The notes under the pieces were generated by a model, which did no database searches, was not told the DNA's origin, and saw nothing but the letters and a program-made list of their open reading frames with translations. From Methanosphaera sp. ISO3-F5 (GTDB lineage: Archaea; Methanobacteriota; Methanobacteria; Methanobacteriales; Methanobacteriaceae), in NCBI RefSeq assembly GCF_034480035.2, contig NZ_CP118753.2, forward strand, positions 1,003,210-1,067,209: a DNA stretch of 64,000 nucleotides, in the 5' to 3' direction. This document shows, piece after piece, positions 1,049 to 17,016 of this stretch (positions are counted from its first letter, which is position 1; every line of letters starts with the position of its first letter). Both the position numbers and the translations under genes were made by a program.

Positions 1049-3367
1049 TTATTTTGGTATATTTTGTCGTATTTCTTGTGGTGTTTTTTGTCTGAATTTT
1101 ACAACTACTTTGTATGGTGTGTATCCATTAATGAGATCTGTACTATACAGTTCGTTATTATCTTCATATGTATTGTATCCTGTTCTTGTTATTATTTTAT
1201 TATTATTTTTGTTTTTAAAGTAGAATTTTACGCTTGTTATTTGGTTGGTCATGCCTGCACCGACCATATCTATTCTTCCATATTGCATAGCATATACACC
1301 AGCAGGATAAGAACCATCTGATACTTGGTACCAGGAGAGTATTCTGTCTGTTCCAAAATATTCTGTATCAGTTGTTCCAAAGTATATTACTGTATCTGTG
1401 ACTTTAGATAGTGGGGTTTCTACTTCTATTTCTCCTTCTTTTTCACGTGTTTTGAATATGACTCTTTCAGTACTTCCGGCATATTTTGAATTTCCATCAA
1501 ATATTACAGTCATTGAATGTTTTTTAAAGTTATTATTTTTAAAGAGATATGTGTACCTGCCCTTGTTATTTGTTTTAGTTGTATATTTTTTTCCATCTAT
1601 TTGTAATGTTAAAGGCACATTTTTCATCATATTTCCTTTATAGTCAAACACTACTCCTTTTATTTTTGTGTACTTTTTATTTGCCTTTGATGTGTCAGTT
1701 ACACTTATGTATGTAGGTTTTTTAGAAACGTAGAATGTTGTTTTATTCACGGCTTTAGTAAAATGGCGGTCTCCCTTAAATGATATTGTTAAAGTATTAA
1801 GTCCTACTTTATTTGCTTTGAAAGTATATTTGTAATATGCATCTTTGGAATAATCTCTACTAGTTTTTATAGTGAAAGATTTACCATTTAATGTTATGGT
1901 AAGTGGTGTTTGATATGCAGTATAACCTCTATCAGTATCTTTTATATATCCGCTAATAGTAACATCTTCACCCAAGATTTGATCTCCATAGATTTTATCT
2001 AAACGTAGTTCTGTTTCGAATGTATATCCACTTGTCGTAGTTGTTGTTCCAGTGTATTTCTCATTTCCAGCAAAAGACACTGTTAAGCTATCTGTATAAT
2101 ATTCTTTTCCTTTATATTTATAGGAAAATTTTCCATTATTATCTGTTCGTATTTTAGATATTTTCCCATCATGATTCACAGTTAATTGACTATTTTTCAG
2201 TGGATTTCCATAATCATCAGTAAACTCTCCTCTCATTATCCGATAACCATTGACAGTTTCATGATAATATACGGGTGTAAGTGATATTCTTGTATCTACA
2301 GGGGTAATATAAAATGAAGTTTTAGAACTTGTACTTCTGTATACTGAATTTCCAGAATAAGATACAGTTATATTGTTTAAACCAATTTTATCTACTTTAT
2401 ATCGGTAATTAAATATTCCATTTTTATCAGTTTTTGTATTGTATTTTTTACCGTTAATGTTTATAGTTATTGGTAGAACACCAGGATTATAAAAATCGTA
2501 ACCATGTATATCTCCACTTATATATTTATAAGCAGTATAATCATCAGTATATCCTGATACATCTATTATTAATGCTTTTTTGGTTACTTTAAATGTTTTC
2601 TTAGTGGTATTATATTTGTAGTAAGTGTTTCCACTAAAATATGCTGTTATAGTATTGGTTCCAACTTTGCTTGTCTTATATTTAAAAGTATAAACTCCAT
2701 CAGAATCTGTTTTTGCAGCATATTTAATATTGTTAATTTTCAACTTTATAGTGGCACTACTTAATGGTTTTCCTTTATTATCAACAAATTTTCCTGTTAT
2801 TATAGCATAATCCTTATATTCTGTACTATTAATGTTATTCAATCTTATTCGTGTTCCTTTTTTAGTTACTTTAAATGTTGTTTTTGTGGTTGCTGCTTTG
2901 TATTCATTGTTTCCGCTGGATGTTGCTATTATCGTGTTTGTTCCTACTTTGTTTGCTTTGTATTTGTAGAAGTAGTTTCCTGAACTGTATGTTTTTGTCT
3001 TATATTTTTTGCCATTAATGTTTAGTGTTATCACTGTGTTTTTTAATGGTTTTCCATTGATTGTTTTGTAGCTTCCTGTTATCAAGGCTTGATCTGAGTA
3101 TTCTATTGTTTTTATTTTTTTGATTGTTATCTTTGTAGGGGTTTTTGTTGTCTTTGATTCTGTTTTAGTATCTTGTATTGTGTTTTCTTTTTGAATTATT
3201 TTATTGGATACTGGTGTGATATTGGTGTCTTTATGTGTTATCGTCTGGGCGGTGGATAAATGTTTGTTATCTGTGTGGGAATTGTTTTGTGTTGCAGTGA
3301 CTGTTCCTATTAGTAAGAATAAAAGTGTAATGAATAATATTATTCGTTTCATATTTTGATTTAACAT
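1049..3367 (-). CDS. Secreted Ig-repeat adhesin-like protein (six repeats plus C-terminal cap)
   Basis: The 772-residue product begins with a basic stretch and a hydrophobic core ending TVTA, a signal peptide, followed by a Thr/Asn/Lys-rich linker. From about residue 78 there are six Ig-like repeats of 92-98 residues. Each has a TGxY/F start, a middle INGKxYxTKT motif and an xGxNxITxxFxGNxxY end. The last 115 residues are a different domain (WYQVSDG, FYFKNK, GYTPYKVVVKF) shared with the proteins at 13837-17016 and 20344-23529. There is no C-terminal membrane anchor, so attachment must be by another route. A GGAGGA ribosome binding site precedes the ATG. Families like this are called adhesin-like proteins in Methanobacteriales; binding to host, microbe or cell wall is inference. 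Confidence 0.85.
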   Translation of the reverse strand: MLNQNMKRIILFITLLFLLIGTVTATQNNSHTDNKHLSTAQTITHKDTNITPVSNKIIQKENTIQDTKTESKTTKTPTKITIKKIKTIEYSDQALITGSYKTINGKPLKNTVITLNINGKKYKTKTYSSGNYFYKYKANKVGTNTIIATSSGNNEYKAATTKTTFKVTKKGTRIRLNNINSTEYKDYAIITGKFVDNKGKPLSSATIKLKINNIKYAAKTDSDGVYTFKYKTSKVGTNTITAYFSGNTYYKYNTTKKTFKVTKKALIIDVSGYTDDYTAYKYISGDIHGYDFYNPGVLPITININGKKYNTKTDKNGIFNYRYKVDKIGLNNITVSYSGNSVYRSTSSKTSFYITPVDTRISLTPVYYHETVNGYRIMRGEFTDDYGNPLKNSQLTVNHDGKISKIRTDNNGKFSYKYKGKEYYTDSLTVSFAGNEKYTGTTTTTSGYTFETELRLDKIYGDQILGEDVTISGYIKDTDRGYTAYQTPLTITLNGKSFTIKTSRDYSKDAYYKYTFKANKVGLNTLTISFKGDRHFTKAVNKTTFYVSKKPTYISVTDTSKANKKYTKIKGVVFDYKGNMMKNVPLTLQIDGKKYTTKTNNKGRYTYLFKNNNFKKHSMTVIFDGNSKYAGSTERVIFKTREKEGEIEVETPLSKVTDTVIYFGTTDTEYFGTDRILSWYQVSDGSYPAGVYAMQYGRIDMVGAGMTNQITSVKFYFKNKNNNKIITRTGYNTYEDNNELYSTDLINGYTPYKVVVKFRQKTPQEIRQNIPK

Positions 3368-3738: not shown

Positions 3739-6700
3739 ATGGCACAAAAACCGGATATTAAACAAGAAACTGCAATACATTATCCATTGGAACCTGTATT
3801 GATTGAAGCAGGTCCAGGTGCTGGAAAAACATACGTGTTAATTAACAGAATAAAATACTTATTAGAAACTAAGAAAGTAAATCCTGAAAGTCTACTGATT
3901 ATTACATTCACTATTAAAGCTGCTGATGAATTGAAAAAACGTTTAAGCTCTAAAGAATATAATATCCCTTCAGAAGCATTGAGTAAAATGTTTATCGGCA
4001 CTATACACAGTTTCTGTAATTATCTGTTAACCGAATATTCCGATAAGGAGATATATCTGTTAGAAAATGATGATGTTGATGAACGTAAAGTCATGTTTTT
4101 ACAGAAAAACATGGATAAACTTGGTTTAAAAGGGTACAGTTACGTGGAAAAATGGGAAACAAGTAATATAATTAAAAAATATGATCAATTCACTAATTTT
4201 GGTCTAAAAGATGAAGAACTAGCCGAATATCTTGAAAAGAATTTTGAAGTATCAAAAGATTATAAAAACTTTGTGAATGATTACATGGAAAAATATCATA
4301 CATTTCCTAAGGATTCTGTGAAGGATAATGATGAATATTATAATTCATGGTATTTTGCAAAGTTTATTGCTATCGTAAAATCTTATAAAGGATATGAAAA
4401 ATTATTAAAAGAGAACAATTTATCTGATTTTTCATTTCTACAGGTATATGCAAAGGAACTTTTATCAAAAGATGAGGAGTATATGGCAAAACTTCTACCA
4501 TTTAAGAATATATTGATTGATGAATTTCAGGATATTGACCCTATTCAGAAGGATATATTTGAAATATTAAGGAAATATTCGGATTCATTTACAGTAGTGG
4601 GGGATGATGATCAAGCAATATATGGATTTAGGGGCAGTTACTCTGATAACTTTGAAGATTTTGCTAAAAAGAACAATACTATTGAACTGGATATTAATCA
4701 TCGTTCCGGTAAAAATATTGTAGATTTTAATGAATGTTTCATTAAAAAGTATCGGAGAACTGATAAAAATCTTGTTCCTGAGAAAACATTTGATTCCAAT
4801 GTATATTATATGAAAAGTGACAAGGATGCAGAAAATATTAATTCAGAAGCAGAAAATATATCATTACTTATCAAATCGTTAAAAGATAATAATAAAATTA
4901 AAAATTATTCCGATGTTGGAATATTATTCAGGGGAATTCAAGGAAATGGAAGTCTAAAAAAACCTATCATAGACTTGTTGAATAAGTTTGATGAGCATGC
5001 TATTCCATACAATATGCCTGATATTTCCTCATTAACTGACCAGAAAGAAGTTAAAGTAATGATGACTCTATTATGGTATATGAAGAAATCATCGTCCAGG
5101 ACATATTTTAGTAAAATAGAAAGAGAATGGTTAAATCTAAGAATATTCACAGAATTAAAGGATTGTCTGAAACTAAGTGATGAAACATGTACAATATTAT
5201 CTGAAATAGAAGATAAATTCGAAGAAAATGTTATAGAAGCAGAATACAATCATGAAAACAGATTATATAAAAGGGGTAAACCTAAAAATTTAAAGGCTAT
5301 GTATACAAGATATCATAATGAAAAATGCACAGCCCTATATAATGAAATATTAAATAGTGTTCCACATTTTGAATTAAATGAAAAAACCAGAACCGATTTA
5401 AAAGATATTGGCATAACAGATGAACATGATCTAGATTTCTTTGAAAAACTATATAATTATAGGAAAAACTACTATGAAACTAGTGAAGATAAACAAGATT
5501 CATTATTAGATGTTTATTATAAACTACTGGAAATATCAGGATTATTAAAAGGCAGATTTGATGAAGAAAACACTGTAAATGATAGAATACTGAATAATCT
5601 TGCAATATTCACTCAAACAATATTTAACTATACAGAATTAGTTGATGAAAACGACTTAAACGGATTAATATGGTTTATATTATCAAATTATGAAAACTAT
5701 TCCAGTTATAATGAAAAAACAGGTATGGAAGATGAAGTACAATTATTAACAGTACATAAAGCAAAAGGATTAGAATTTCCAGTAGTAATACTATGTACAT
5801 TAGAAAACAATAATTTTCCATACAAAGAAATAACTAAAGAATCAATAGATGAATTATCCAAAAAAGAGCGTGGAGTTCCAACATATCCAATAAAACCAGA
5901 ATTCTTCAAAAACAAACATTATAATCAAGAAGAAGAAATAGAATTAGAAGATCTTGAAGAAAAACGTATATTCTATGTTGCATGTACACGAGCAGAACAG
6001 TTATTAATATTATCCACAGTATACGATAAAGAAGGAAACAAGCCAGAATTCCTGGAAGAATTAGAGAAAGACACAACTTTATCCGAGATATCACCACATG
6101 ATTTTAATAAGATTGATAAACTAACAACCTCCAAGGATGAAGAAAAAACAGAAAGAATCAGGATGAGCTACACAAGCTTTTCAGCATATAACAAGTGTCC
6201 AAGAATGTACAATATAGGCTACAATTACCAGTTTAGACTTCCAGCATCAAAAGTTATAAATGATGGACTAGCAGCCCACACAATACTAGAAAGAATGAAT
6301 AAAGAAACACTACAAGGAAAAGATATACAAAAAGAAGATATAACCAGAATATCTGAAAAAATACTACAAAACTATCCAGATATTCAAGAAGAAAACTTTA
6401 ACAATGTAATAAAAGGAATAGAAAACTACTGGAAAAATTATGAAAATAGCGAATGGGAAATAATAGGTTCAGAAGTACCATTCAACATAATAAAAGAACA
6501 CTATGACATAGAAGGAAAAATAGATTTAATACTAAAAAATTCCAAAACAAACGATATCAAAATAGTGGACTATAAAACAACAAATCAACAAAAACTAAAA
6601 GCTAGAAAGAAAACTCATGAACAACAATTATGCATATACGCCAAAGCATTAGAAAACTACCTAGAATACAATCAACACAATATCAAATATGCAAGCGTAT

Positions 6701-6876
6701 ACAGTATATATGACAACTATGAATTAGAAATAGAATTAACAAAAGAAAAAATAGAAAAAATAAACAATTCACTAGACAAAACAGTAGAACATATTCTTAA
6801 CAAACAATATGACAAGACCAATAAAGAAAAATGCGACGAATGCCCATACTATAACAAATTATGTAAACATAATTAA
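3739..6876 (+). CDS. UvrD/REP-type DNA helicase with C-terminal RecB-type Fe-S nuclease
   Basis: This is a superfamily 1A helicase fused to a PD-(D/E)XK nuclease in 1045 residues, expected to unwind and process DNA ends during repair in the cytoplasm. Helicase motifs are complete: Walker A GPGAGKT (25-31), GTIHSFC, DEFQD (261-265), GDDDQAIYGFRG, LDINHRS, VHKAKGLEF (about 672-680) and YVACTRAE. The C-terminal nuclease has Asp929 (GKID), Asp944-Tyr-Lys946 and a QLCIYAKAL helix. Cys820 (YNKCPRMY) together with Cys1032, Cys1035 and Cys1042 form the four-cysteine iron-sulfur pattern known from AddB and Cas4. All catalytic residues appear present. The gene stands alone, with divergent and convergent neighbours. 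It could equally be called an AddA/B-like or PcrA-like repair helicase. Confidence 0.93.
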   Translation: MAQKPDIKQETAIHYPLEPVLIEAGPGAGKTYVLINRIKYLLETKKVNPESLLIITFTIKAADELKKRLSSKEYNIPSEALSKMFIGTIHSFCNYLLTEYSDKEIYLLENDDVDERKVMFLQKNMDKLGLKGYSYVEKWETSNIIKKYDQFTNFGLKDEELAEYLEKNFEVSKDYKNFVNDYMEKYHTFPKDSVKDNDEYYNSWYFAKFIAIVKSYKGYEKLLKENNLSDFSFLQVYAKELLSKDEEYMAKLLPFKNILIDEFQDIDPIQKDIFEILRKYSDSFTVVGDDDQAIYGFRGSYSDNFEDFAKKNNTIELDINHRSGKNIVDFNECFIKKYRRTDKNLVPEKTFDSNVYYMKSDKDAENINSEAENISLLIKSLKDNNKIKNYSDVGILFRGIQGNGSLKKPIIDLLNKFDEHAIPYNMPDISSLTDQKEVKVMMTLLWYMKKSSSRTYFSKIEREWLNLRIFTELKDCLKLSDETCTILSEIEDKFEENVIEAEYNHENRLYKRGKPKNLKAMYTRYHNEKCTALYNEILNSVPHFELNEKTRTDLKDIGITDEHDLDFFEKLYNYRKNYYETSEDKQDSLLDVYYKLLEISGLLKGRFDEENTVNDRILNNLAIFTQTIFNYTELVDENDLNGLIWFILSNYENYSSYNEKTGMEDEVQLLTVHKAKGLEFPVVILCTLENNNFPYKEITKESIDELSKKERGVPTYPIKPEFFKNKHYNQEEEIELEDLEEKRIFYVACTRAEQLLILSTVYDKEGNKPEFLEELEKDTTLSEISPHDFNKIDKLTTSKDEEKTERIRMSYTSFSAYNKCPRMYNIGYNYQFRLPASKVINDGLAAHTILERMNKETLQGKDIQKEDITRISEKILQNYPDIQEENFNNVIKGIENYWKNYENSEWEIIGSEVPFNIIKEHYDIEGKIDLILKNSKTNDIKIVDYKTTNQQKLKARKKTHEQQLCIYAKALENYLEYNQHNIKYASVYSIYDNYELEIELTKEKIEKINNSLDKTVEHILNKQYDKTNKEKCDECPYYNKLCKHN

Positions 6877-7041: not shown

Positions 7042-7635
7042 CTAATTAAAATTAAATAACTTGTTAATTTTTTTATTATCTCCCATTCCATTAATAACTA
7101 TGGAACCATCCTTTTTTAATCTAATTTCTATTTTATTTTCTAATAAATTCAATTTATTTTCTAAATATTTATAACGATTACTTAAAAAATGATATTCTTG
7201 ATTACTTGATCCAATCCAAATTTTATCTTGTACCATTTTATTTATATCGAATTCACCAGATATTAATAAATCTGTTATTTCTAATAAATTATTCCAGTTA
7301 CTATCATTAATTTTCTTTATAAAATTATAATTAAATCCAGTAAATGTTACTATAGATAAATTATGTTTTTTAATTAATTTACCTAGCTGATATAATTCTT
7401 TAGATTGTAGAAATGGTTCACCTCCTGAAAAAGTTACACCTTCTATATTTTTATTGGATAAAATATGTTGTGCTAATTTATTAATTTCATATTCTTTTCC
7501 GGAAGTTATATCCCAAGTTTGTTTAGAATTACAATATTTGCAATGCTTTAAACAACCTTGCACAAATATACAAGTTCTATTTCCAGGGCCTTCTACTTTG
7601 GTATTATTTATTATTTCATATATTCTTATATTCAT
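7042..7635 (-). CDS. Small radical SAM enzyme, NrdG-like activating-enzyme fold
   Basis: The 197-residue protein (start chosen at ATG 7635; a GTG three codons upstream is possible) has the core of anaerobic activating enzymes. It carries GNRTCIFVQGC with the radical SAM triad Cys28-x3-Cys32-x2-Cys35, and later TFSGGEPFL (the GGEP SAM-binding motif). It should bind one [4Fe-4S] cluster and cleave S-adenosylmethionine. NrdG normally activates the anaerobic ribonucleotide reductase NrdD, but no NrdD is present here. Instead it is divergent from a zinc-ribbon/HhH, DUF2997 and AAA+ cluster, so its target is probably in that set. Upstream spacing to the divergent gene is about 236 nt. Function beyond radical SAM chemistry is inference. 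Confidence 0.85.
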   Translation of the reverse strand: MNIRIYEIINNTKVEGPGNRTCIFVQGCLKHCKYCNSKQTWDITSGKEYEINKLAQHILSNKNIEGVTFSGGEPFLQSKELYQLGKLIKKHNLSIVTFTGFNYNFIKKINDSNWNNLLEITDLLISGEFDINKMVQDKIWIGSSNQEYHFLSNRYKYLENKLNLLENKIEIRLKKDGSIVINGMGDNKKINKLFNFN

Positions 7636-7871
7636 TTGAAACACTATTTATTTAATATATTATAGAGTTTACTATTATATATACTATTATAAAGTTAATA
7701 AATAAAGCGTTGATTTTGAAAATGAAGTTTACTTTTAATTATACGGGTTATTCAACTAACTTTTTTATATACAATAAATTATAAAAATATTATTAGAAAT
7801 CAGAATTGAATTAAACATAAAATTATAACCTTTATTTATGTTATTTATTTAAAAATATAAAGAATAAATTG
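7636..7871. promoter_or_regulatory. Divergent promoter region of the radical SAM / AAA+ cluster
   Basis: This AT-rich gap lies between the leftward radical SAM gene and the rightward zinc-ribbon/HhH gene. Several TATA-like stretches are present (for example ATATACTATTATAAAG at 7679-7694). Sharing one gap would allow joint control of both arms. Confidence 0.4.
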
Positions 7872-9023
7872 ATGATTATGTCCAATAATAACGAATATTA
7901 TTCTTCAGAACATTTGAACTGCCCTATATGTGAATATCCTATGTATTCTTTTGAGAAAAGTGGTTTTTTTAGTGGAGGCACACATTTTCTCTGTAAAAAG
8001 TGTGGACTGGAATTAACTGATAAAAAGGATAATAGATATTACATTGAAAATGCTCCTGAGAATACAAAATTGAATAAAAAATATAAATATAAAACATTAC
8101 ATTGGAATGATTTACTTCAAATTGCATGTGGAAATTATACTTGGGAAGAAAAAATGGAAATATCTCAATTAATAAGAATAGAAATTACTGATGAAATTTG
8201 TCCCGTTTGTTATGAAAAATATTTGGAAACTTTTAGAAAAGAGGGGATGTTATCATTTAATTCTTTAATATGTCCTAATTGTAATGTTAGATTTGAAATT
8301 TCAAATGATCATGTTTCATTTATATATTCTAGAAATAATTTTTCAATTTTATGGGAATTTTATAATAAAAAATTATATTTAAATCAAATTAGGGATATTT
8401 TAAGTAAGTATAATCAAGAAATCTATCAAAAAAGGATTGAATATGAAGAAAATAATCCTGAAGATTTTTTTACAGAAACTGATTTAGAAACAAACGAATT
8501 AGAAAATACAGAAAAGTTTATTGAAATTGATATTAATAACGCATCTATAACTGATTTATTAAATATTCAAACATTAAATGATGAGCAAATAATGAAACTT
8601 ATCCGATTAAAAGATTCAGGAGTAATATTTTACTCTTATGAAGATTTAAGTGATAGATTAAATCTTACTAATGATGAACTAGAATATGTAAAAAATGAAT
8701 TAATTATAAATGAACTGGAAGATAATATATTCAATAATGAAACAAACAATGGACACTTAGACGAAGAAAGTGAAGAAGAAGATAATCCTTATAAAATTGA
8801 TATTAATTCTGCTGATTTAGATGAATTAACTAACATTCCTAGTATTAATTTAATTAAAGCAAAAAAAATAATAAATTTACGAAATGAAAACAATTATATT
8901 AAGTCTTATGATGACTTAAAAGAAAAATTAAATTTAAATCCTGAACAAATAAATCAAATAAAAAAACGTACAATAATTTCTGAAGTAAATGATGACCTCT
9001 CCGGAAGAATTATAGATTTTTAG
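7872..9023 (+). CDS. Double zinc-ribbon protein with two ComEA-like helix-hairpin-helix repeats
   Basis: The roughly 383-residue product has four parts. First is a zinc ribbon (CPIC ... CKKC, residues about 17-50). Second is another CxxC pair set (CPVC ... CPNC, about 115-145). Third are two helix-hairpin-helix units of the ComEA type, each starting IDIN-(N/S)-A (about 220 and 312) and ending in a YEDL/YDDL segment with Leu-Asn-Leu. Last is an acidic linker and the tail GRIIDF. HhH units of this kind bind DNA or act as protein docking modules. It is the first gene of a rightward operon; the gap to the DUF2997 gene is 34 nt. Start choice is uncertain (ATG 7872 or 7878; a TTG at 7869). No catalytic motif was seen; it may be an adaptor for the AAA+ ATPase. 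Confidence 0.75.
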   Translation: MIMSNNNEYYSSEHLNCPICEYPMYSFEKSGFFSGGTHFLCKKCGLELTDKKDNRYYIENAPENTKLNKKYKYKTLHWNDLLQIACGNYTWEEKMEISQLIRIEITDEICPVCYEKYLETFRKEGMLSFNSLICPNCNVRFEISNDHVSFIYSRNNFSILWEFYNKKLYLNQIRDILSKYNQEIYQKRIEYEENNPEDFFTETDLETNELENTEKFIEIDINNASITDLLNIQTLNDEQIMKLIRLKDSGVIFYSYEDLSDRLNLTNDELEYVKNELIINELEDNIFNNETNNGHLDEESEEEDNPYKIDINSADLDELTNIPSINLIKAKKIINLRNENNYIKSYDDLKEKLNLNPEQINQIKKRTIISEVNDDLSGRIIDF

Positions 9024-9057
9024 AATAATACATAGCAATAATAATTAGGTGATATAA

Positions 9058-9264
9058 ATGTCTAAAAAACTTATAATTAAAATAAAAAAAGATGGTACTA
9101 TCGAATCTGAAACTAAGGGTATAAAAGGAAAAAAATGTGAAAATTATATTCCATTAATAGAAAAATTAACAGATTCTAAAGTTATAAATAAAGAGTATAC
9201 GCAAGAATATTATGAAAATACCGATGAAATACATAATCAAGCATTTAAAAAAATAACTAATTAG
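9058..9264 (+). CDS. DUF2997 family small protein
   Basis: The 68-residue protein has the DUF2997 signature: a strand-rich start (KLIIKIKKDGTIESET), G-x-KG-KKC at residues 22-28 and the end TQEYYEN. It follows a GGTGAT ribosome binding site (9048-9053). The AAA+ gene starts 12 nt after its stop, implying translational coupling. As I recall, DUF2997 genes in cyanobacteria and other bacteria often sit beside DUF1257 (Ycf35) and Ycf46-type ATPase genes, and that context is reproduced here. Biochemical role is unknown. The single conserved cysteine (Cys28) could be a modification or metal site; that is speculation. Confidence 0.75.
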   Translation: MSKKLIIKIKKDGTIESETKGIKGKKCENYIPLIEKLTDSKVINKEYTQEYYENTDEIHNQAFKKITN

Positions 9265-9276
9265 TGAGTGAGAAAA

Positions 9277-10935
9277 ATGCAAGAATTTGATAAAGAGTTA
9301 TGTGATTTATTAAGAGCACGATTTCCTTTTATTCAAATTACCACATATGAAGAAGAACGATTAATAAATGAACTATCACGTATAGTTACTACACCTGAAT
9401 TAATACATACTGTTAGAAACATTTTTATATGGAAATCTTCAGAAGGTTTTAAAAATGATAAAGGAATCATTCAGGAAAATACTTTTGAAAAATTAAGGGC
9501 TTTAAATTTTATTAAAGAATTTGATCAACCAGGACTATTTATTATTTTAGATTTTCATATTTTTTGTGAACGAGCAAATGGAGGTACCGATTTTAATATA
9601 ATAAGAAGTTTAAAAGATTTAATGCCTCATTTAAAACAAAGTCGTGACCCTAAAAATATCATATTTGTTTCACCATCATTCACAATACCTGATGATTTAA
9701 AAAAAGATGTAACAGTAATGGATTTTAAGTTACCTACAGAAGCTGAAATCGAATCAGTTTTAGAAGAAATCATTAAAGCAAATAAAAAAGGAAATCTTGA
9801 AATAAATTTAAATGAAAAAGATAAAGAATCTATAATTAAAGCAGCAGTAGGATTAACTCTACAAGAAGCAGAAAATGCATTTGCACGAGCAATGGTGAAT
9901 GATGGAAAATTGGATGCGGATGATATTGACTTAGTTTTAAAAGAAAAAAGTCAAGTTATTAAAAAGAATGAACTACTAGAATATGTGGATTCGGATGTAG
10001 ATATTAATGATGTTGGTGGTTTAGAAAATCTGAAAAAATGGTTAATTAAAAGAGATAAATCTTGGCTTGATTCAGCAAAAGATTATGGTTTACCTTCTCC
10101 TAAAGGAGTTTTACTTACAGGAGTACCAGGCTGTGGAAAAAGTTTAATTGCAAAATCTATAAGTTCAATGTGGCATTTACCATTGTTACGTTTTGATGTT
10201 TCTAAAGTATTTAACATGTATGTGGGTAATAGTGAATCTAATATGAGAGAAGCTATCAAAACTGCAGAAGCTATTTCACCATGTATTTTATGGATTGATG
10301 AAATAGAAAAAGGATTCTCTGGTTTAAGTAATGGTGGTGATGGAGGTACTAGTAGTCGTATTTTTGGTACATTCCTTAGTTGGATGCAAGAAAAAACTAA
10401 ACCAGTTTTTGTAGTTGCTACAGCAAACAATATATCTGGATTACCTTCAGAAATGATGCGTAAAGGAAGATTTGATGAAATATTTTTTATTGATTTACCT
10501 ACTTATAATGAAAGAAAACAGATATTTAAAGTTCATTTACAATCAAGATTAAAAAAACCTAAAGTTATTGGTGATTTTAATATTGATGAAACTTCCCTTA
10601 ATCATTTAGCAAATTTAACAGAAGGATTTGGTGGTGCTGAAATAGAACAGATTATTATAATGGGTTTGTTTGATGCATTTGCAGAAAATCGTAGTATTAC
10701 AATGAATGATTTTGAAAATGCTATTAAAAATACTGTTCCATTAAGTATCACTCAGGCAGAACAAATAAGAAATATTCGAGAATGGGCAGATATAAGAGCT
10801 GTTGCTGCAACAGCACAAGAAGATAGGTTAAATTATAAAAATCAGTTTGACATCACATCGGATGATTCTTCAGAACCTCCTGAAGATTCTTCAGATATTA
10901 ATGATAGTAGGGGTGGAAGAACTCTTGATTTTTAA
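9277..10935 (+). CDS. Ycf46-like AAA+ ATPase
   Basis: The start was taken at ATG 9277 behind GTGAGTGA (9267-9271 region); a GTG at 9268 is an alternative. The 552-residue protein has an N-terminal domain opening LLRARFPFIQITTYEEER, the typical Ycf46 beginning. A complete AAA module follows: Walker A GVPGCGKS (282-289), Walker B IDE (Asp341, Glu342), sensor-1 ATANN, the arginine-finger region MRKGRFDEI and the sensor-2 region GGAEIEQI. The tail is Ser/Asp-rich and ends GRTLDF, like the product of 7872-9023. Ycf46 proteins occur in cyanobacteria and plastids and are implicated in carbon/photosynthetic regulation there; in an anaerobic methanogen the role must differ. It is likely the motor of the locus, remodelling a partner. 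ATPase identity is firm; Ycf46 kinship is good but unverified. Confidence 0.85.
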   Translation: MQEFDKELCDLLRARFPFIQITTYEEERLINELSRIVTTPELIHTVRNIFIWKSSEGFKNDKGIIQENTFEKLRALNFIKEFDQPGLFIILDFHIFCERANGGTDFNIIRSLKDLMPHLKQSRDPKNIIFVSPSFTIPDDLKKDVTVMDFKLPTEAEIESVLEEIIKANKKGNLEINLNEKDKESIIKAAVGLTLQEAENAFARAMVNDGKLDADDIDLVLKEKSQVIKKNELLEYVDSDVDINDVGGLENLKKWLIKRDKSWLDSAKDYGLPSPKGVLLTGVPGCGKSLIAKSISSMWHLPLLRFDVSKVFNMYVGNSESNMREAIKTAEAISPCILWIDEIEKGFSGLSNGGDGGTSSRIFGTFLSWMQEKTKPVFVVATANNISGLPSEMMRKGRFDEIFFIDLPTYNERKQIFKVHLQSRLKKPKVIGDFNIDETSLNHLANLTEGFGGAEIEQIIIMGLFDAFAENRSITMNDFENAIKNTVPLSITQAEQIRNIREWADIRAVAATAQEDRLNYKNQFDITSDDSSEPPEDSSDINDSRGGRTLDF

Positions 10936-11050
10936 TCATATTTCTAATTAATGCAAAATGACATTTAATTATTTTTTTGCTACAAAATATGTTAGTAAAA
11001 AAAAGAGATTATTATCAAAAAATAAATTATTCAAAAATAGATGTGAAAAT

Positions 11051-11374
11051 ATGACTCAAGAATCTAATATAAATTTCTGTATTAATTGTGGAAATAAACT
11101 TACTTCCAATGCTAATTTTTGTATTTATTGTGGGGCAAAAATTGATGATGATACCGAAGATACAAGTAATATATCAAATAATAAAATTTACATTAATAAA
11201 GCAAACCTACAAGAATTATTAAAAATTCCGTATATTGAAATAATTCATGCAGAAAAAATTATAAGAATGAGAAGAAGGGGATTTGAGTTAAAAACATATG
11301 ATAAAATGAAAATGAAATTAAATTTAAATAATGATGAAATAAATGAAATTAAAAAATATACTTCATTAGAATAA
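11051..11374 (+). CDS. Small zinc-ribbon plus helix-hairpin-helix protein
   Basis: The start was chosen at ATG 11051 (107 residues), because the zinc ribbon begins directly after it. An upstream ATG at 10958 would add an unlikely 31-residue extension. Residues 9-29 hold a double CxxC zinc ribbon (FCINCG, FCIYCG). The rest is one ComEA-like HhH unit (YINKANLQELLKIP ... AEKIIRMRR) matching those in the protein of 7872-9023. It is the last gene of the rightward operon, 115 nt after the AAA+ gene. It looks like a minimal version of the first gene's adaptor architecture. Function unknown; DNA or protein binding is inferred from the fold. Confidence 0.7.
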   Translation: MTQESNINFCINCGNKLTSNANFCIYCGAKIDDDTEDTSNISNNKIYINKANLQELLKIPYIEIIHAEKIIRMRRRGFELKTYDKMKMKLNLNNDEINEIKKYTSLE

Positions 11375-11407
11375 AAATATTTTATTTTAAAATTTTTTCA
11401 AAGTATA

Positions 11408-12112
11408 TTAATTAATATTTAATGTAAGTATAATTGAATCTTCATTATCAATTATTTCAGATTCTAAATTTAAATTTTCGTTTTCTATTCTTTCTAATAC
11501 TTTAAGGTATGTTTGTTCTTGAATTAGTAATGCATATTCATCTGATATGTTTTTTACATAATTTTCAGCTTCTTTTTTATTATAATTTCCTATGAATAGA
11601 AAATCTAAAGTTTCATCATCATTTTTTTTTAAAATTATTTCACCTTTATTTTGAAATTCATTTAATGCTTTTTTTGAAGAAAAACCCAAATAATTATCTT
11701 TTAATATGGAATTAATAATTTTTTCATCTTTTAAATTGGAAGGTATTTTAAAGCTTTGTTTAGATTTTTCATTTACAATTGTTAAATTTACATTATCTAT
11801 ATTAGAAATTTTTTTGAAATCATTATTAATAGCATTTATAAATATATTTATGTCTTTAAGATCATAATCTCCTACAAATCGTATTTCAATTTTGTTATCT
11901 TTTAATCTAAATAACATTGTCCCTTGATTTTCAAAATTAATAAAATCTTGTTTTGATTTAAATCCTAAAGTATGATCTTTATCTAAAATTTCATTTAATG
12001 TATCCATACTATTAACACTAGTTCTAATAGTTACATCCGTATCAACAAAATGACTTTGTATATCCAATAATAAACCTATTCCTATTGGAATAGTCACTAG
12101 TTGTAAACTCAT
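11408..12112 (-). CDS. Possible DUF1257 (Ycf35)-like protein with internal duplication
   Basis: The 234-residue product starts MSLQLVTIPIGIG. It contains two related units of about 65 residues (about 42-105 and 137-200), each with a LGFxSKxxxxxFxNxG segment followed by a FVGDYDLK or FIGNYNKK segment and a helix. The end (DEYALLIQEQTY, then a helix, then SEIIDNEDSIILTLNI) resembles the QRYAYH ... IxLVL ending of DUF1257/Ycf35 proteins. That family is the usual companion of DUF2997 and Ycf46, which fits the location 33 nt from the operon end and convergent to it. Sequence similarity is weak and was judged by eye, so the family call is tentative. The gene itself looks real, with good codon use and an ATG. 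Confidence 0.55.
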   Translation of the reverse strand: MSLQLVTIPIGIGLLLDIQSHFVDTDVTIRTSVNSMDTLNEILDKDHTLGFKSKQDFINFENQGTMLFRLKDNKIEIRFVGDYDLKDINIFINAINNDFKKISNIDNVNLTIVNEKSKQSFKIPSNLKDEKIINSILKDNYLGFSSKKALNEFQNKGEIILKKNDDETLDFLFIGNYNKKEAENYVKNISDEYALLIQEQTYLKVLERIENENLNLESEIIDNEDSIILTLNIN

Positions 12113-12770
12113 TTTCGTTACCTCAAATTATTTCACAATATAATAAATCATATTACATTTATAATATATAAGTATTTATTATTTAAATCCAGATTAACCT
12201 TTAATTTATAAATTCAAGTAGAACTAATTTAATGATAATAGAAATAATTAAAGATTAAATTTTATTAAGTGATTTTAGAGAAAATATTTCGTTGTATTCT
12301 TTATTATTTTTTTAGTATATAAATACTCTAATAATAAGAATTGAATATATTTAATAGAAATAATTTTAATATGTTTTAGATATTTATTATTAAAATTATT
12401 AAAATTGATAAATTCAATAAATATTAACTTATATAATTATATATAAAAATTTAACAATTATATAAGGTTATTCTAATCGTTATATCTAAAAATATTTAAA
12501 TATACAAGAATATAATTTATAATAGTTATTAGAATATATTTTTAATGTGCGACATTTAGTATTTGGATAATAAAACTAATAATATTAAACATTAAAATAT
12601 CTTCAAATCATTAAAATTCTTTATATATCTGATGTTTGATAGGGATTCATTAGAATAGTTATGAATAAAGAGAGAATTAATGATTAAAAATAATATTAAA
12701 TATTAAAACGTTTTAATTATAAATAGTTAAGTATCATTTTTTTTCATAATAAACTTTAAAGGTGGAAAAA
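12113..12770. other. AT-rich intergenic region
   Basis: About 650 bp of extremely AT-rich DNA with no coding stretch on either strand. It must contain the promoters of the two divergent flanking genes; a TATA-like ATTATAAATA lies at 12716-12725, about 45 nt upstream of the zinc-ribbon membrane protein start. Nothing else was recognised. Confidence 0.4.
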
Positions 12771-13394
12771 ATGTATTGTCAAAAATGTGGTTATGAAAAT
12801 AAAGAATCAGCTAAATTTTGTAAAAAATGTGGTACCGCTTTAACTATACATGCAAGTTTAAAAAATCATAACCCTACATCACGAACTGATAATAATTCTT
12901 CAAAAAATAATAAAATAATAATTATTTCTATAACTATAATTATAATTTCACTAATTATTGCTGGATCAATTCTTTATATGTCTGAAAATAATTCAAAGAC
13001 TGAAAATATTTCTTCAAATAATGAAAATAATGCAGTTAATTCTAATGTTAGTAGTAATGAAAATTTAAATGATAATTTAAAAATTATTAGTGGAAGTTTT
13101 TCAACAGCTACTCCATTACCTGCAAAAACATATATTACAGTATATGTTGGAGATAATCATGCAGGTGAAAATGTTAAAATTAGGGTATTTTATAGTTATA
13201 GGGGAACTACATTAAATGCGGGGAATATTGTACCATTAACTGTTGAAAGTACAGGTCATTTTACAATGAGAACTGCAAACGAACTTACTAGTTATCCGGA
13301 TCATGCATCTATAACTTTATATGATGGATCAGGAAATGTAGTTGATACTAAAGAGGTTGATATTAATCCAGTTAGTGGAACACAAACTTTTTAG
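12771..13394 (+). CDS. Zinc-ribbon, single-membrane-span protein with external beta domain
   Basis: The start is at ATG 12771 behind GGTGG. The 207-residue product has a cytoplasmic zinc ribbon (CQKCG ... CKKCG, residues 3-24) and one transmembrane helix (about 45-68, Ile-rich). A Ser/Asn-rich linker leads to an extracellular beta-rich domain of about 100 residues (from LKIISGSFSTAT to the end, with YVGDNHAGENVKIRV and PDHASITLYD). It is a close paralogue of the protein at 53426-54067 and more distantly of 52761-53363. The architecture suggests signalling or scaffolding across the membrane. Ligand and partners are unknown. Confidence 0.75.
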   Translation: MYCQKCGYENKESAKFCKKCGTALTIHASLKNHNPTSRTDNNSSKNNKIIIISITIIIISLIIAGSILYMSENNSKTENISSNNENNAVNSNVSSNENLNDNLKIISGSFSTATPLPAKTYITVYVGDNHAGENVKIRVFYSYRGTTLNAGNIVPLTVESTGHFTMRTANELTSYPDHASITLYDGSGNVVDTKEVDINPVSGTQTF

Positions 13395-13836
13395 GATAAG
13401 GTATAATTTTTGATTTTTTTTCTATTTTTTTCTTCTTTTATTAGTTTTTGTTAAATTTTGTTTGTTTTTTGTTTTAATTTATATATTTTTTTATTTTTAA
13501 TGTAAGGTTTTATTATCGTATCTTTTTTTTTTATATGGGCTTTCGAATAGTATCATATTCTTTTATAAAATTTAATAAAACCTATGAATATTAAAATTAG
13601 ATTTTATTAGTAATAATGATCATTTTTAAAAGATTAATACTTATTTATATGGTTGTTGTAGATTTTTTATTATCTTAAAAAGAGGGGTTTACTGTATAAA
13701 TTTTTTGTTTAGTTTTTTACGTACTGGTGTTATGTTTAAATGGTTAAATTTATATGTTTTTAAATACTATTAATATTCAACTATTCATTTTAATTTTAAT
13801 GTATAGTTAGATTTACAACAATTTTTAGTGAGTTAT
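13395..13836. other. Intergenic region upstream of adhesin
   Basis: T-rich on the plus strand just after the preceding stop (13410-13530), suggesting a transcription end. A TATA-like TTTATATG lies at 13749-13756, about 80 nt upstream of the adhesin start. No ORF was seen. Confidence 0.4.
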
Positions 13837-16800
13837 ATGGATAAAAAACAAGTTGTGTTAATATATTCTTTTTTATCATTACTTTTTGTACTCTTTGCAA
13901 TGACAACGATTAGTGCATCTGATTTTAATGATTCAGTTGATGATAAAAGGATATCTGATGATTATTCAAAGGATATGGTTACTCAAAAAAGTAGTAATAC
14001 TTTTGATGATTCGTTACGAGAAAATAGTGATATTAATAAGTTGAATGATTCTTCAAAGTTTAATGATAATATTAATACAAAAAGTATGGAAAAAATCAAT
14101 ACAAAGCCCGTTAAAAAGGAGTGGGATAGTTCTTATTTATTCACAGATTTGGAGTTAAATGTTAGTGATACAGTATATGTGGGGGATAATATATCAATTA
14201 ATGGTGTGTTATATTGTGGTTATTATACGGATACTCCTTATATATATGAGAATATTAGTGTGGAATTTGAATCTGATATTTATAATTTAACTACAGATGA
14301 AAATGGTTATTTTTATTTAAATGTTCCAGCTAGTATTGCTGGTAGATATACAATAATTGCTAAATATTCTAATGATAATCCGAGGATTGGTAATTCAATA
14401 GATTATGCTTATGTAGAGATATTGAAATATGATACAAGCATTACAGTAGATACTGATAAGAGTATATATGTTGGTGATGAATTTCATATTTATGGTAATT
14501 TAAAAACATATAAAGGTAATATACCTAATGCTACAATAAGATTAACTGTTGATAATAGTTCTTACTATATTACAACATTAGATGATGGTAGTTATAATGC
14601 TAACATAACAGTTTCATTCAGTGGTAATAAAACTGTTGAAGTATATTATCCTGGATCATATAATTATACTGATATAACTAGCATAACTTCTGTTTATGCG
14701 TATGATAGTACTCAATTATCAGTAGTGTCTCATAAGAGTGGATATGTTGGAGAGAAAGTTAGTGTATATGGAAATCTGAAAAAATTTGGTGAAAATTTAG
14801 CAAATGCTAGAATAACCTTAAAAGTAGATGGTAAAACATTTTCAGTAATAACTGATGAATATGGAAATTATAATGCTAAAATTTTGATGTCGAAAATGGG
14901 GAATAAGACAATAATATCATCATATGTTGATTCAAAGAATAATATTTATGATACAAATAAAACAATTGTTAATGTGAAGAAAAAACCTACTAAACTAACA
15001 TTAAACACTACAAGTACAGTCCTAGTAGGAAATAAAGTGAGCATTTATGGAAAACTTACATCAAGGGATGCTTCTGTATCTGATAAAACAGTAACAATCA
15101 ATTTTGATGGGAAAAAATATAATGTAACTACAAATAAAAATGGTTTTTATAGTCTTAAAGCAGAAGTTAAATCTTCGGGTAAGCATAAAGTCCGGGTAAA
15201 TTATGCTGGTTCTACGGTTTATACTTCTACAGTAAAGTCCAAATCATTCAGGGCTGAAAAAAGGAAAACTAGTATTAGATTAAGTAAGCCATTGAATTTA
15301 TTTGTAGGAGAAAAAGTGAATATTAAGGGTAAATTAATTTCTAAAGGAAGTTTATTATCTGAAGAGCTATTAATTATTGATGTTGATGGTAAAAGGTATA
15401 AGTCTAAAACTAAAAAAGATGCTAGTTTTGGTCTTAAAATAGGTGTTAAGTCTTCTGGTAAGCATAAAGTCAGGGTAAGCTATAATGGTTCTGCAGTTTA
15501 TACTTCTGCAGTAAATTCCACATATTTTGCTGCTGAAAAAAGATTAACTCATATTTCTTTAAGAAGTACTAAAAAATTATATCTCGGAGATAAACTCAAT
15601 ATAAATGGAAGATTAACATCAAAAAAGGGTGCAATACCTAAGCAGAAAATTAAATTAACGGTAGAAGGTAAAACGTATACTATCACTACTAAAAAATATG
15701 GAGAATTTAATCTAAAAGTAACATCAAAATCCACATCATACAAAAGAATATACGTCAAATATGATGGAAATAATAAGTATAAAAGTTCACGAAACAATAC
15801 CAGTTATACATCAAAACCATTGAATAAGATTACAATCGGAAGTACTTCAACAGTTTATGTTGGAGAACGGGTAAGTGTCTATGGTAAATTAACTACTCGA
15901 GATAAATCAGCAGCATACAAAAAGGTAACAGTTAATCTGGAAGGAAAAAATTATAAAACAACAACTAATAAGTATGGAAAGTATAATCTAAAGCTTATAC
16001 CATTAACTAGTGGAACAAAACGGATTACAGTATCCTATGGTAACATTAATAAGTATGGAGTATCAGAGTACACGTACTTCGATGCATACAAAAAGTCATC
16101 AACCATATCAGTGCAATCATCGGATTCAGTACAATTTGGCGATAAAGTAAATGTTTACGGAAAATTAACCTCCAATGGAAATGAAATTCCATATAAAACA
16201 ATTAAAATAAATATAAATGGAAAACATTATTCTACAACAACAAATCAGCACGGATATTATAACATAGCTATCACAACAACATCAATTGGTAAAAACAAGA
16301 TTTTAGCTACATTTACTGGAAGTGATGAATATTATGGTAGTGATGATTATGTGTATTTCACAGTAACTAAACCGGATTCAAAAATAACTGTCAGCACGAC
16401 TAAAAACCCTTGTGTAGGTGATGATGTGAACATATATGGAAAATTATCATCTAAGGGAAGAGGATTAGCAGATCAAGAAGTTGTTATAAATGTAGAATCC
16501 AAGTATTATTATGTTTTCACAGATACAAATGGGAAATATAATTTAAAAATAGATGCTTTAAAAAAGGGAAATAATTATATATCAGTGTATTATGATGGGG
16601 ACAGTAATCATAAAGCTACTAGTACAAACACAAAATTCAAAGTTATTGAACCATTTGGAACATTAATGTTAGATGTAGGTACTATGTATTATGGTGAGTC
16701 AACCTCTAAGAGATATGTTGGAAATAATTTATTCTCATGTTGGTATCAAACATATGATGGACAATATGATAAAGGAATACATGTAGAAACAATAGGTTAT

Positions 16801-17016
16801 AATCCTAGAACTGATAGGTATAGTTCACCGGAGTATACAATTACAGATGCATTATTCTTCTTTAAAGATAGTGATGATGAAATTCATTGGAGTCATGCTA
16901 ATATAGATTATAATTATTATACTTATTTAGGTCATACATGGGTGTCTGGTTGGACTCCATACAAAGTAGTAGTCTACTATCGTAAAGCAACAGCATATGA
17001 AAGACAAAATTTCTAA
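13837..17016 (+). CDS. Secreted Ig-repeat adhesin-like protein (nine repeats plus C-terminal cap)
   Basis: The start was taken at ATG 13837; the GTG at 13828 is part of the GTGA ribosome binding site. The 1059-residue product has a signal peptide (ending TTISA), an Asp/Ser-rich linker, and nine Ig-like repeats of about 92 residues. Typical repeat elements are YVGxKVxIYGKL, GKxYxxTTNKxGxY and GxxxIxVxYxG. A C-terminal domain of about 120 residues (SCWYQTYDG, FFFKDSDDE, GWTPYKVVVYY) is homologous to the ends of the 1049-3367 and 20344-23529 products. Repeats are more diverged from each other than in the two leftward adhesins, suggesting an older array. No membrane anchor is visible. Confidence 0.85.
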   Translation: MDKKQVVLIYSFLSLLFVLFAMTTISASDFNDSVDDKRISDDYSKDMVTQKSSNTFDDSLRENSDINKLNDSSKFNDNINTKSMEKINTKPVKKEWDSSYLFTDLELNVSDTVYVGDNISINGVLYCGYYTDTPYIYENISVEFESDIYNLTTDENGYFYLNVPASIAGRYTIIAKYSNDNPRIGNSIDYAYVEILKYDTSITVDTDKSIYVGDEFHIYGNLKTYKGNIPNATIRLTVDNSSYYITTLDDGSYNANITVSFSGNKTVEVYYPGSYNYTDITSITSVYAYDSTQLSVVSHKSGYVGEKVSVYGNLKKFGENLANARITLKVDGKTFSVITDEYGNYNAKILMSKMGNKTIISSYVDSKNNIYDTNKTIVNVKKKPTKLTLNTTSTVLVGNKVSIYGKLTSRDASVSDKTVTINFDGKKYNVTTNKNGFYSLKAEVKSSGKHKVRVNYAGSTVYTSTVKSKSFRAEKRKTSIRLSKPLNLFVGEKVNIKGKLISKGSLLSEELLIIDVDGKRYKSKTKKDASFGLKIGVKSSGKHKVRVSYNGSAVYTSAVNSTYFAAEKRLTHISLRSTKKLYLGDKLNINGRLTSKKGAIPKQKIKLTVEGKTYTITTKKYGEFNLKVTSKSTSYKRIYVKYDGNNKYKSSRNNTSYTSKPLNKITIGSTSTVYVGERVSVYGKLTTRDKSAAYKKVTVNLEGKNYKTTTNKYGKYNLKLIPLTSGTKRITVSYGNINKYGVSEYTYFDAYKKSSTISVQSSDSVQFGDKVNVYGKLTSNGNEIPYKTIKININGKHYSTTTNQHGYYNIAITTTSIGKNKILATFTGSDEYYGSDDYVYFTVTKPDSKITVSTTKNPCVGDDVNIYGKLSSKGRGLADQEVVINVESKYYYVFTDTNGKYNLKIDALKKGNNYISVYYDGDSNHKATSTNTKFKVIEPFGTLMLDVGTMYYGESTSKRYVGNNLFSCWYQTYDGQYDKGIHVETIGYNPRTDRYSSPEYTITDALFFFKDSDDEIHWSHANIDYNYYTYLGHTWVSGWTPYKVVVYYRKATAYERQNF

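Follow-up and report, generated by a model that had tools for sequence, protein, structure and literature searches.

What connects a small radical S-adenosylmethionine (SAM) enzyme with an AAA+ ATPase and zinc-ribbon proteins at a single locus of a methanogen? The question is raised by positions 7042 to 12112 of a 64,000-nucleotide stretch of the Methanosphaera sp. ISO3-F5 genome (contig NZ_CP118753.2, positions 1,003,210 to 1,067,209; hereafter, the window). A first-pass annotation had proposed a radical-based protein or nucleic-acid modification system driven by an AAA+ remodeller, made up of an NrdG-like radical SAM protein, two zinc-ribbon proteins with helix-hairpin-helix (HhH) domains, a DUF2997 protein, a Ycf46-like ATPase and a convergent DUF1257-like protein. 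Its open reading frames (ORFs) were recovered at the same positions, and their gene identities held in Pfam and NCBIfam searches. Our analysis added a second paralogous cluster, a third orphan ATPase and a C-terminal tag common to the ATPase and its partner proteins. By analogy with p97, there is about an even chance that these genes form a tag-guided AAA+ protein-remodelling system. The view of an AAA+ remodeller, radical chemistry and adaptors as one system is supported; that the ATPase drives a radical modification is unproven and probably puts the emphasis in the wrong place, because the link between the ATPase and its tagged partners is the most conserved one and survives where the radical SAM, DUF1257 and DUF2997 genes were not detected.

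The p97-like AAA+ ATPase (555 aa, 9268–10935, plus strand; AAA domain, 1.5e-32) ends in RGGRTLDF (10909–10932, plus strand), identified both as an ORF end and by pattern match. A zinc-ribbon protein with two HHH_3 repeats (384 aa, 7869–9023, plus strand; HHH_3 at 2.8e-18, plus Cys pairs) ends in SGRIIDF, its tag GRIIDF lying at 9003–9020 (plus strand; in-frame pattern match G000:C1:1012215-1012232). Partner proteins terminate in [G/E]-R-x-[VIL]-[DE]-[FL]-COOH and the ATPases in RGGRT[LI]DF. With the core families themselves excluded, the tag was found at the end of 75 of 316 ORFs near core genes, where ∼0.2 would be expected by chance from the internal frequency of the motif. It ended 7 of 516 more distant ORFs, all of them inside extended clusters (L042, L043, and L052). 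The Gly was replaced by Glu in 29 of the 75 partner tags (∼40%). One protein of locus L019 carries an additional internal copy, which would argue for a linear docking motif. A genome-wide search for the tag by DNA pattern gave raw counts no different from the reversed control (15 vs. 16 and 9 vs. 9); only in-frame ORF ends were used from this search, and the pattern misses the Leu codons TTA and TTG at -3.

The partners were usually transmembrane (TM)-HhH or zinc-ribbon-HhH proteins and sometimes Mrr-nuclease, TPR, or coiled-coil proteins. An HhH domain stood directly ahead of the tag in 74 of 84 tagged partners, in some of them preceded by TPR or GYF domains. The other 10 (including a TM-Mrr nuclease, zinc-ribbon coiled-coil proteins and other membrane proteins) carry the tag without an HhH on unrelated domains, and the tag is therefore a separable module. 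A hydrophobic TM window was present in 69/84 tagged proteins vs. 240/632 background ORFs. The partners resemble ComEA and type II secretion K proteins in having HHH_3, the HhH family of both, and often N-terminal membrane segments. They differ in being tagged and sitting with the ATPase, in a conserved set without secretion or competence genes. Tagged TM-HhH proteins also occur unlinked to a cluster, at 2.21 Mb in the same genome and in genome G120, where the cluster itself lacks a linked HhH gene. The other zinc-ribbon protein of the window locus (10958–11374, plus strand; Zn_Ribbon_1 and HHH_3) has a single HhH and no tag. Its HHH_3 score of 26.6 bits is slightly short of the 27-bit cut-off, and the called start of this protein (138 aa as called) is probably internal. 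In a rumen bacterial locus (L052, 2299–7341), seven successive tagged proteins lie by one ATPase, an array that suggests client expansion.

The distribution favours a tag that goes with the ATPase and not with the radical SAM gene. Six Methanosphaera genomes have a tagged ATPase without a detectable DUF2997, DUF1257-like, or close radical SAM gene, and in two of these a tagged partner immediately adjoins the ATPase (a TM-HhH protein in L142 and a zinc ribbon in L145). Since the tag is kept with the ATPase alone in these six genomes, the ATPase is favoured as its reader. Tag-like ends were also found on Omnitrophota and phage ATPases without a nearby radical SAM gene. The ATPase relative of Mycobacterium phage Shida (L110, 2572–4353) ends in KVRVLDL, which fits the tag. 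In Pseudomonas phage SM1 (L109), an ATPase and small DUF1257-like and DUF2997-like genes were recognized by eye.

The ATPase has an AAA-like N-terminal domain, a canonical AAA domain (residues 281–409), a disordered linker and the C-terminal tag, in which R551 is nearly invariant in the alignment; since the sequence contains a single P-loop, the first AAA domain is degenerate. It matches p97/Cdc48/VAT unfoldases in sequence (E ∼1e-50) and p97/Cdc48 D1-D2 in fold over ∼550 columns along the whole chain, sharing with them two AAA-type domains. It departs from them in lacking Walker A in the first domain and the p97 N-domain, and in a tail that is the tag common to partner proteins; the match is thus one of D1-D2 fold only, p97/Cdc48 proper having two functional AAA domains and an N-domain. 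The Ycf46-like assignment was borne out by full-length similarity (43% over 93%) to a Geminocystis ATPase adjoining DUF1257 and DUF2997 genes. The closest ATPase contig match was to a Methanosphaera metagenome-assembled genome (80%). In the ATPase tree, the proteins from radical SAM-bearing loci form a single clade (100/99, midpoint root), apart from a core clade of cyanobacterial, Asgard, and Omnitrophota ATPases that lie beside DUF1257 and DUF2997 genes, generally without a radical SAM gene or tagged partners. Members of this Ycf46-type core clade do not conserve a tag with Arg at -5, and the core loci seen have no NrdG-like radical SAM gene (a Treponema plasmid excepted) and no tagged HhH partners. 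Some of its members end in a related hydrophobic-D/E-hydrophobic tripeptide, and comparison of these ends suggests that the partner tag may have been copied from an older ATPase tail. The methanogen ATPases make up one supported group (100/97) nested in bacterial diversity, a placement that would fit acquisition from bacteria. ATPase relatives also reside on plasmids of Klebsiella, Enterobacter, Nostoc, and Planktothrix; of the 68, 26 were typed as conjugative. On the Treponema succinifaciens plasmid (L104, 3–14067), a core-clade ATPase relative and a radical SAM gene lie within a contractile-injection-like set (VgrG/Pvc8, baseplate V).

Linkage of the cluster genes, as claimed in the first-pass annotation, was confirmed by a neighbourhood survey and is far beyond chance. 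Across the class, DUF2997 was found in just 7 of 152 genomes, belonging to two genera. The DUF2997, radical SAM, and DUF1257-like genes share exactly one set of genomes, 6 of the 20 in the genus (p = 2.6e-5 for one pair). When species-representative genomes were scanned with the ATPase, 80 loci were returned, the contig set being biased to the closest ATPase relatives. Locus content was determined by ORF calling and family profiles; the high-GC loci L066, L069, L070, L077, L078, L081, L084, and L089 were mis-framed by the simple ORF caller and are not true negatives. The set of ATPase, DUF1257-like, DUF2997, radical SAM, and HhH genes was found in shuffled order in Bacillota, Actinomycetota, Bacteroidota, Melainabacteria, Fusobacteriota, and others, for example in Tenacibaculum, Gastranaerophilales, and Sebaldella. 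On a Rhodococcus plasmid, the set is annotated as AAA, hypothetical, DUF2997, helix-hairpin-helix, and "4Fe-4S single cluster" genes. This widespread gene system has apparently not been described as such, and in the openly searchable literature we found no paper that links DUF2997, DUF1257, or Ycf46 to either a C-terminal tag or a radical SAM enzyme. Co-occurrence of the core triad is already known; the tag, the partner proteins and the radical SAM gene are new. In Synechocystis, "cluster g" is duf2997-ycf35-fed7 (PMC4284462), and plastids of freshwater Nemaliophycidae lack both ycf35 and ycf46 (PMC5940233); both are consistent with a functional core.

How might these parts work together? The ATPase would form a p97/Cdc48-like ring with two AAA-type domains, the first degenerate (no P-loop) and the second active. 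Dedicated clients or adaptors, typically with an HhH domain behind N-terminal membrane segments or zinc ribbons, would use their terminal R-x-(V/I/L)-(D/E)-(F/L) peptide to dock on the ATPase body, where the tail of the ATPase and those of the clients may compete for one site. In this way, membrane-anchored HhH proteins would reach the ring, to be assembled, disassembled, or extracted there. DUF1257-type proteins, with a ferredoxin-like fold, and DUF2997 proteins would serve as small cofactors of the ring, and the radical SAM protein, an activase relative without a nearby glycyl-radical-enzyme partner, may modify one component. In the AlphaFold2 model of the ATPase, the pLDDT of 43 in the disordered linker rises to 73–78 over the last 15 residues, which is compatible with a docked tail. 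The whole picture, in which a p97-like ring reads a C-terminal peptide that it bears itself, recruits membrane-anchored HhH proteins and other cargo, has its ring, tag, or small cofactor modified by the radical SAM enzyme, and is spread over bacteria and methanogens, is offered tentatively, at somewhat less than an even chance.

Several points weigh against this picture. The function is argued from p97. Just one of the five AlphaFold2 models of the ATPase was confident, and tail docking was read from pLDDT. Because the tagged HhH proteins are for the most part homologous to one another, their tags are not independent events. Finally, every complete ATPase C-terminus in radical SAM-bearing loci is tagged (54 of 56, the other two being a contig-truncated copy and a copy with two extra residues), and a role of the radical SAM enzyme in reading or modifying the tag is therefore possible. 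The same count, and the fact that tag and radical SAM gene mark the same 100/99 ATPase clade, would be expected if the tag were the enzyme's substrate, the C-terminal peptide of the ATPase and partners being modified (e.g., at Arg, Asp, or the Gly-Gly of the ATPase) and assembly controlled in this way. We regard such a substrate role as rather unlikely, given that the tag is unchanged on the ATPases and partners of the six Methanosphaera genomes without a close radical SAM gene, that Glu so frequently stands for Gly in partner tags, and that the Omnitrophota and phage ATPases with tag-like ends have no such gene nearby. A glycyl radical on the RGG tail of the ATPase was also considered and is not favoured: the Gly is missing in the radical SAM-bearing locus L082 and is often Glu in partners.

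The HhH domains raise the alternative of a nucleic-acid system, in which ComEA-type HhH proteins would be membrane-located or cytosolic DNA binders, with the ATPase and radical SAM enzyme acting in DNA uptake, repair, or defence. Besides the HHH_3 family itself, the TM-Mrr nuclease among the tagged proteins could be read in this way, as could a core-triad copy on one cyanobacterial plasmid that has RloB and a zeta toxin in its vicinity. The loci nonetheless lack any conserved polymerase, ligase, helicase, or nuclease, the HhH domains have frequently lost the canonical GIG hairpin, and most bacterial loci inspected have housekeeping-type neighbours. In PADLOC, the core genes fitted no defence system and showed generic similarity only (AAA to IetA, radical SAM to viperin). 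We consider a nucleic-acid role improbable, and nothing was found that pointed to nucleic-acid modification, the other half of the annotated function, beyond the HhH domains themselves. Still more doubtful is a reading of the tag as a degron, with the ATPase unfolding proteins for a protease. A short C-terminal tag with a dedicated AAA+ protein recalls ssrA and ClpX, but here the ATPase itself is tagged, the loci have no conserved protease, and the R-x-hydrophobic-D-F end of the ATPase is unlike the HbYX motif of proteasome activators.

The radical SAM protein (200 aa, 7042–7644, minus strand; Fer4_12 at 1.6e-32) shares the Fer4_12 domain and an intact CX3CX2C motif with NrdG and pyruvate formate-lyase (PFL) activase, the latter being its closest solved relative. 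Its best named model was NrdG (TIGR02491), at 106.7 bits under a curated cut-off of 126.1. C31, C35, and C38 are invariant in the family alignment. Unlike these activases, it has a conserved C-terminal extension of ∼40 residues and a distribution that tracks DUF2997 and DUF1257 rather than NrdD. The annotation had noted that no NrdD lies nearby, and the single NrdD of the genome is indeed far away. Because NrdD is present in 19/20 genus genomes (the window-type radical SAM gene in just 6, the DUF2997/DUF1257 carriers), lies at a distance, and is accompanied by a separate NrdG2-type radical SAM gene in the same genome, the view that the window protein is not simply an NrdD activase is supported. 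An ordinary NrdG in an accidental neighbourhood, to which the best named model and the one NrdD in the genome would point, is hardly credible in view of these distributions, the sub-threshold score, the separate NrdG2-type protein, and the recurrence of the radical SAM gene by the ATPase in several phyla, including Tenacibaculum and Citricoccus, genera that are usually described as aerobic. No glycyl radical enzyme was found in the loci examined. A seventh genus genome gave a weak radical SAM match (33% identity, E 3e-16), and in the fragmented genome G118 the gene sits on a different contig. The C-terminal hairpin of the radical SAM protein (KIEIRLKKDGSI) resembles the N-terminus of DUF2997 (KLIIKIKKDGTI; hhalign 87%, over 14 columns only); homology is not claimed, as this match is too short.

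The DUF2997 protein (68 aa, 9058–9264, plus strand; PF11211 at 7.7e-15) scored 54.9 bits vs. the Pfam gathering cut-off of 24.1, so this assignment of the annotation was upheld. G13, G21, and C27 are invariant in the family alignment and K23 and G24 nearly so; the invariant Cys (in G-x-x-G-x-x-C) is one candidate target of the radical SAM enzyme. The divergent DUF1257-type protein (234 aa, 11408–12112, minus strand) was assigned by family profile and AlphaFold2 model. The annotated relationship applies to its family, although the window protein itself gave no Pfam match, including to PF06868. Four of 15 proteins in a wider alignment match PF06868, and a 41-member profile matched a set of DUF1257 proteins and neighbours (hhalign 95.8%, E 7.7e-9), whereas the eight methanogen sequences alone stayed below significance (19.8%). 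These profile comparisons establish the wider family as homologous to DUF1257. The model (mean pLDDT 86) predicts two tandem ferredoxin-like repeats. A fold search with it returned the generic ferredoxin-like fold, with designed proteins as the best match and no specific structural family, and a sequence search of solved structures with the family gave nothing significant. To our knowledge, DUF1257 (Ycf35), DUF2997, and Ycf46 have had no assigned function in cyanobacteria or red-algal plastids; with a version in bacteria and archaea that has a clear shared tag and defined partners, this function can be tested directly. If the proposed remodelling system is real, it would provide a new tag-AAA+ recognition pair, as well as a radical SAM enzyme with a protein target in a methanogen genus.

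In all, the same genome has two clusters of this kind and three copies of the ATPase. The other cluster (L003, G000:C1:985000-1003300; 8880–14899) starts ∼3 kb upstream of the window and consists of zinc ribbon/HhH, ATPase, DUF2997, HhH, and DUF1257-like genes, with both HhH proteins tagged and no radical SAM gene. The third ATPase is solitary but tagged (G000:C1:1148681, in L140, G000:C1:1141000-1158000; 7685–9343). The position of this copy is conserved in G122, a genome of the same species, and masked bases lie a few kilobases away. Comparison of the window locus with G122 gave no clean empty site, since the flanking UvrD-like gene is missing there too. That gene (window 3739–6876) encodes a UvrD-type helicase fused with a PD-(D/E)XK nuclease domain and has a 76% identical counterpart in G131, there without an adjoining cluster. 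Large repeat-rich, adhesin-like surface proteins are encoded on either flank of the cluster (window 1049–3367 and 13828–17016).

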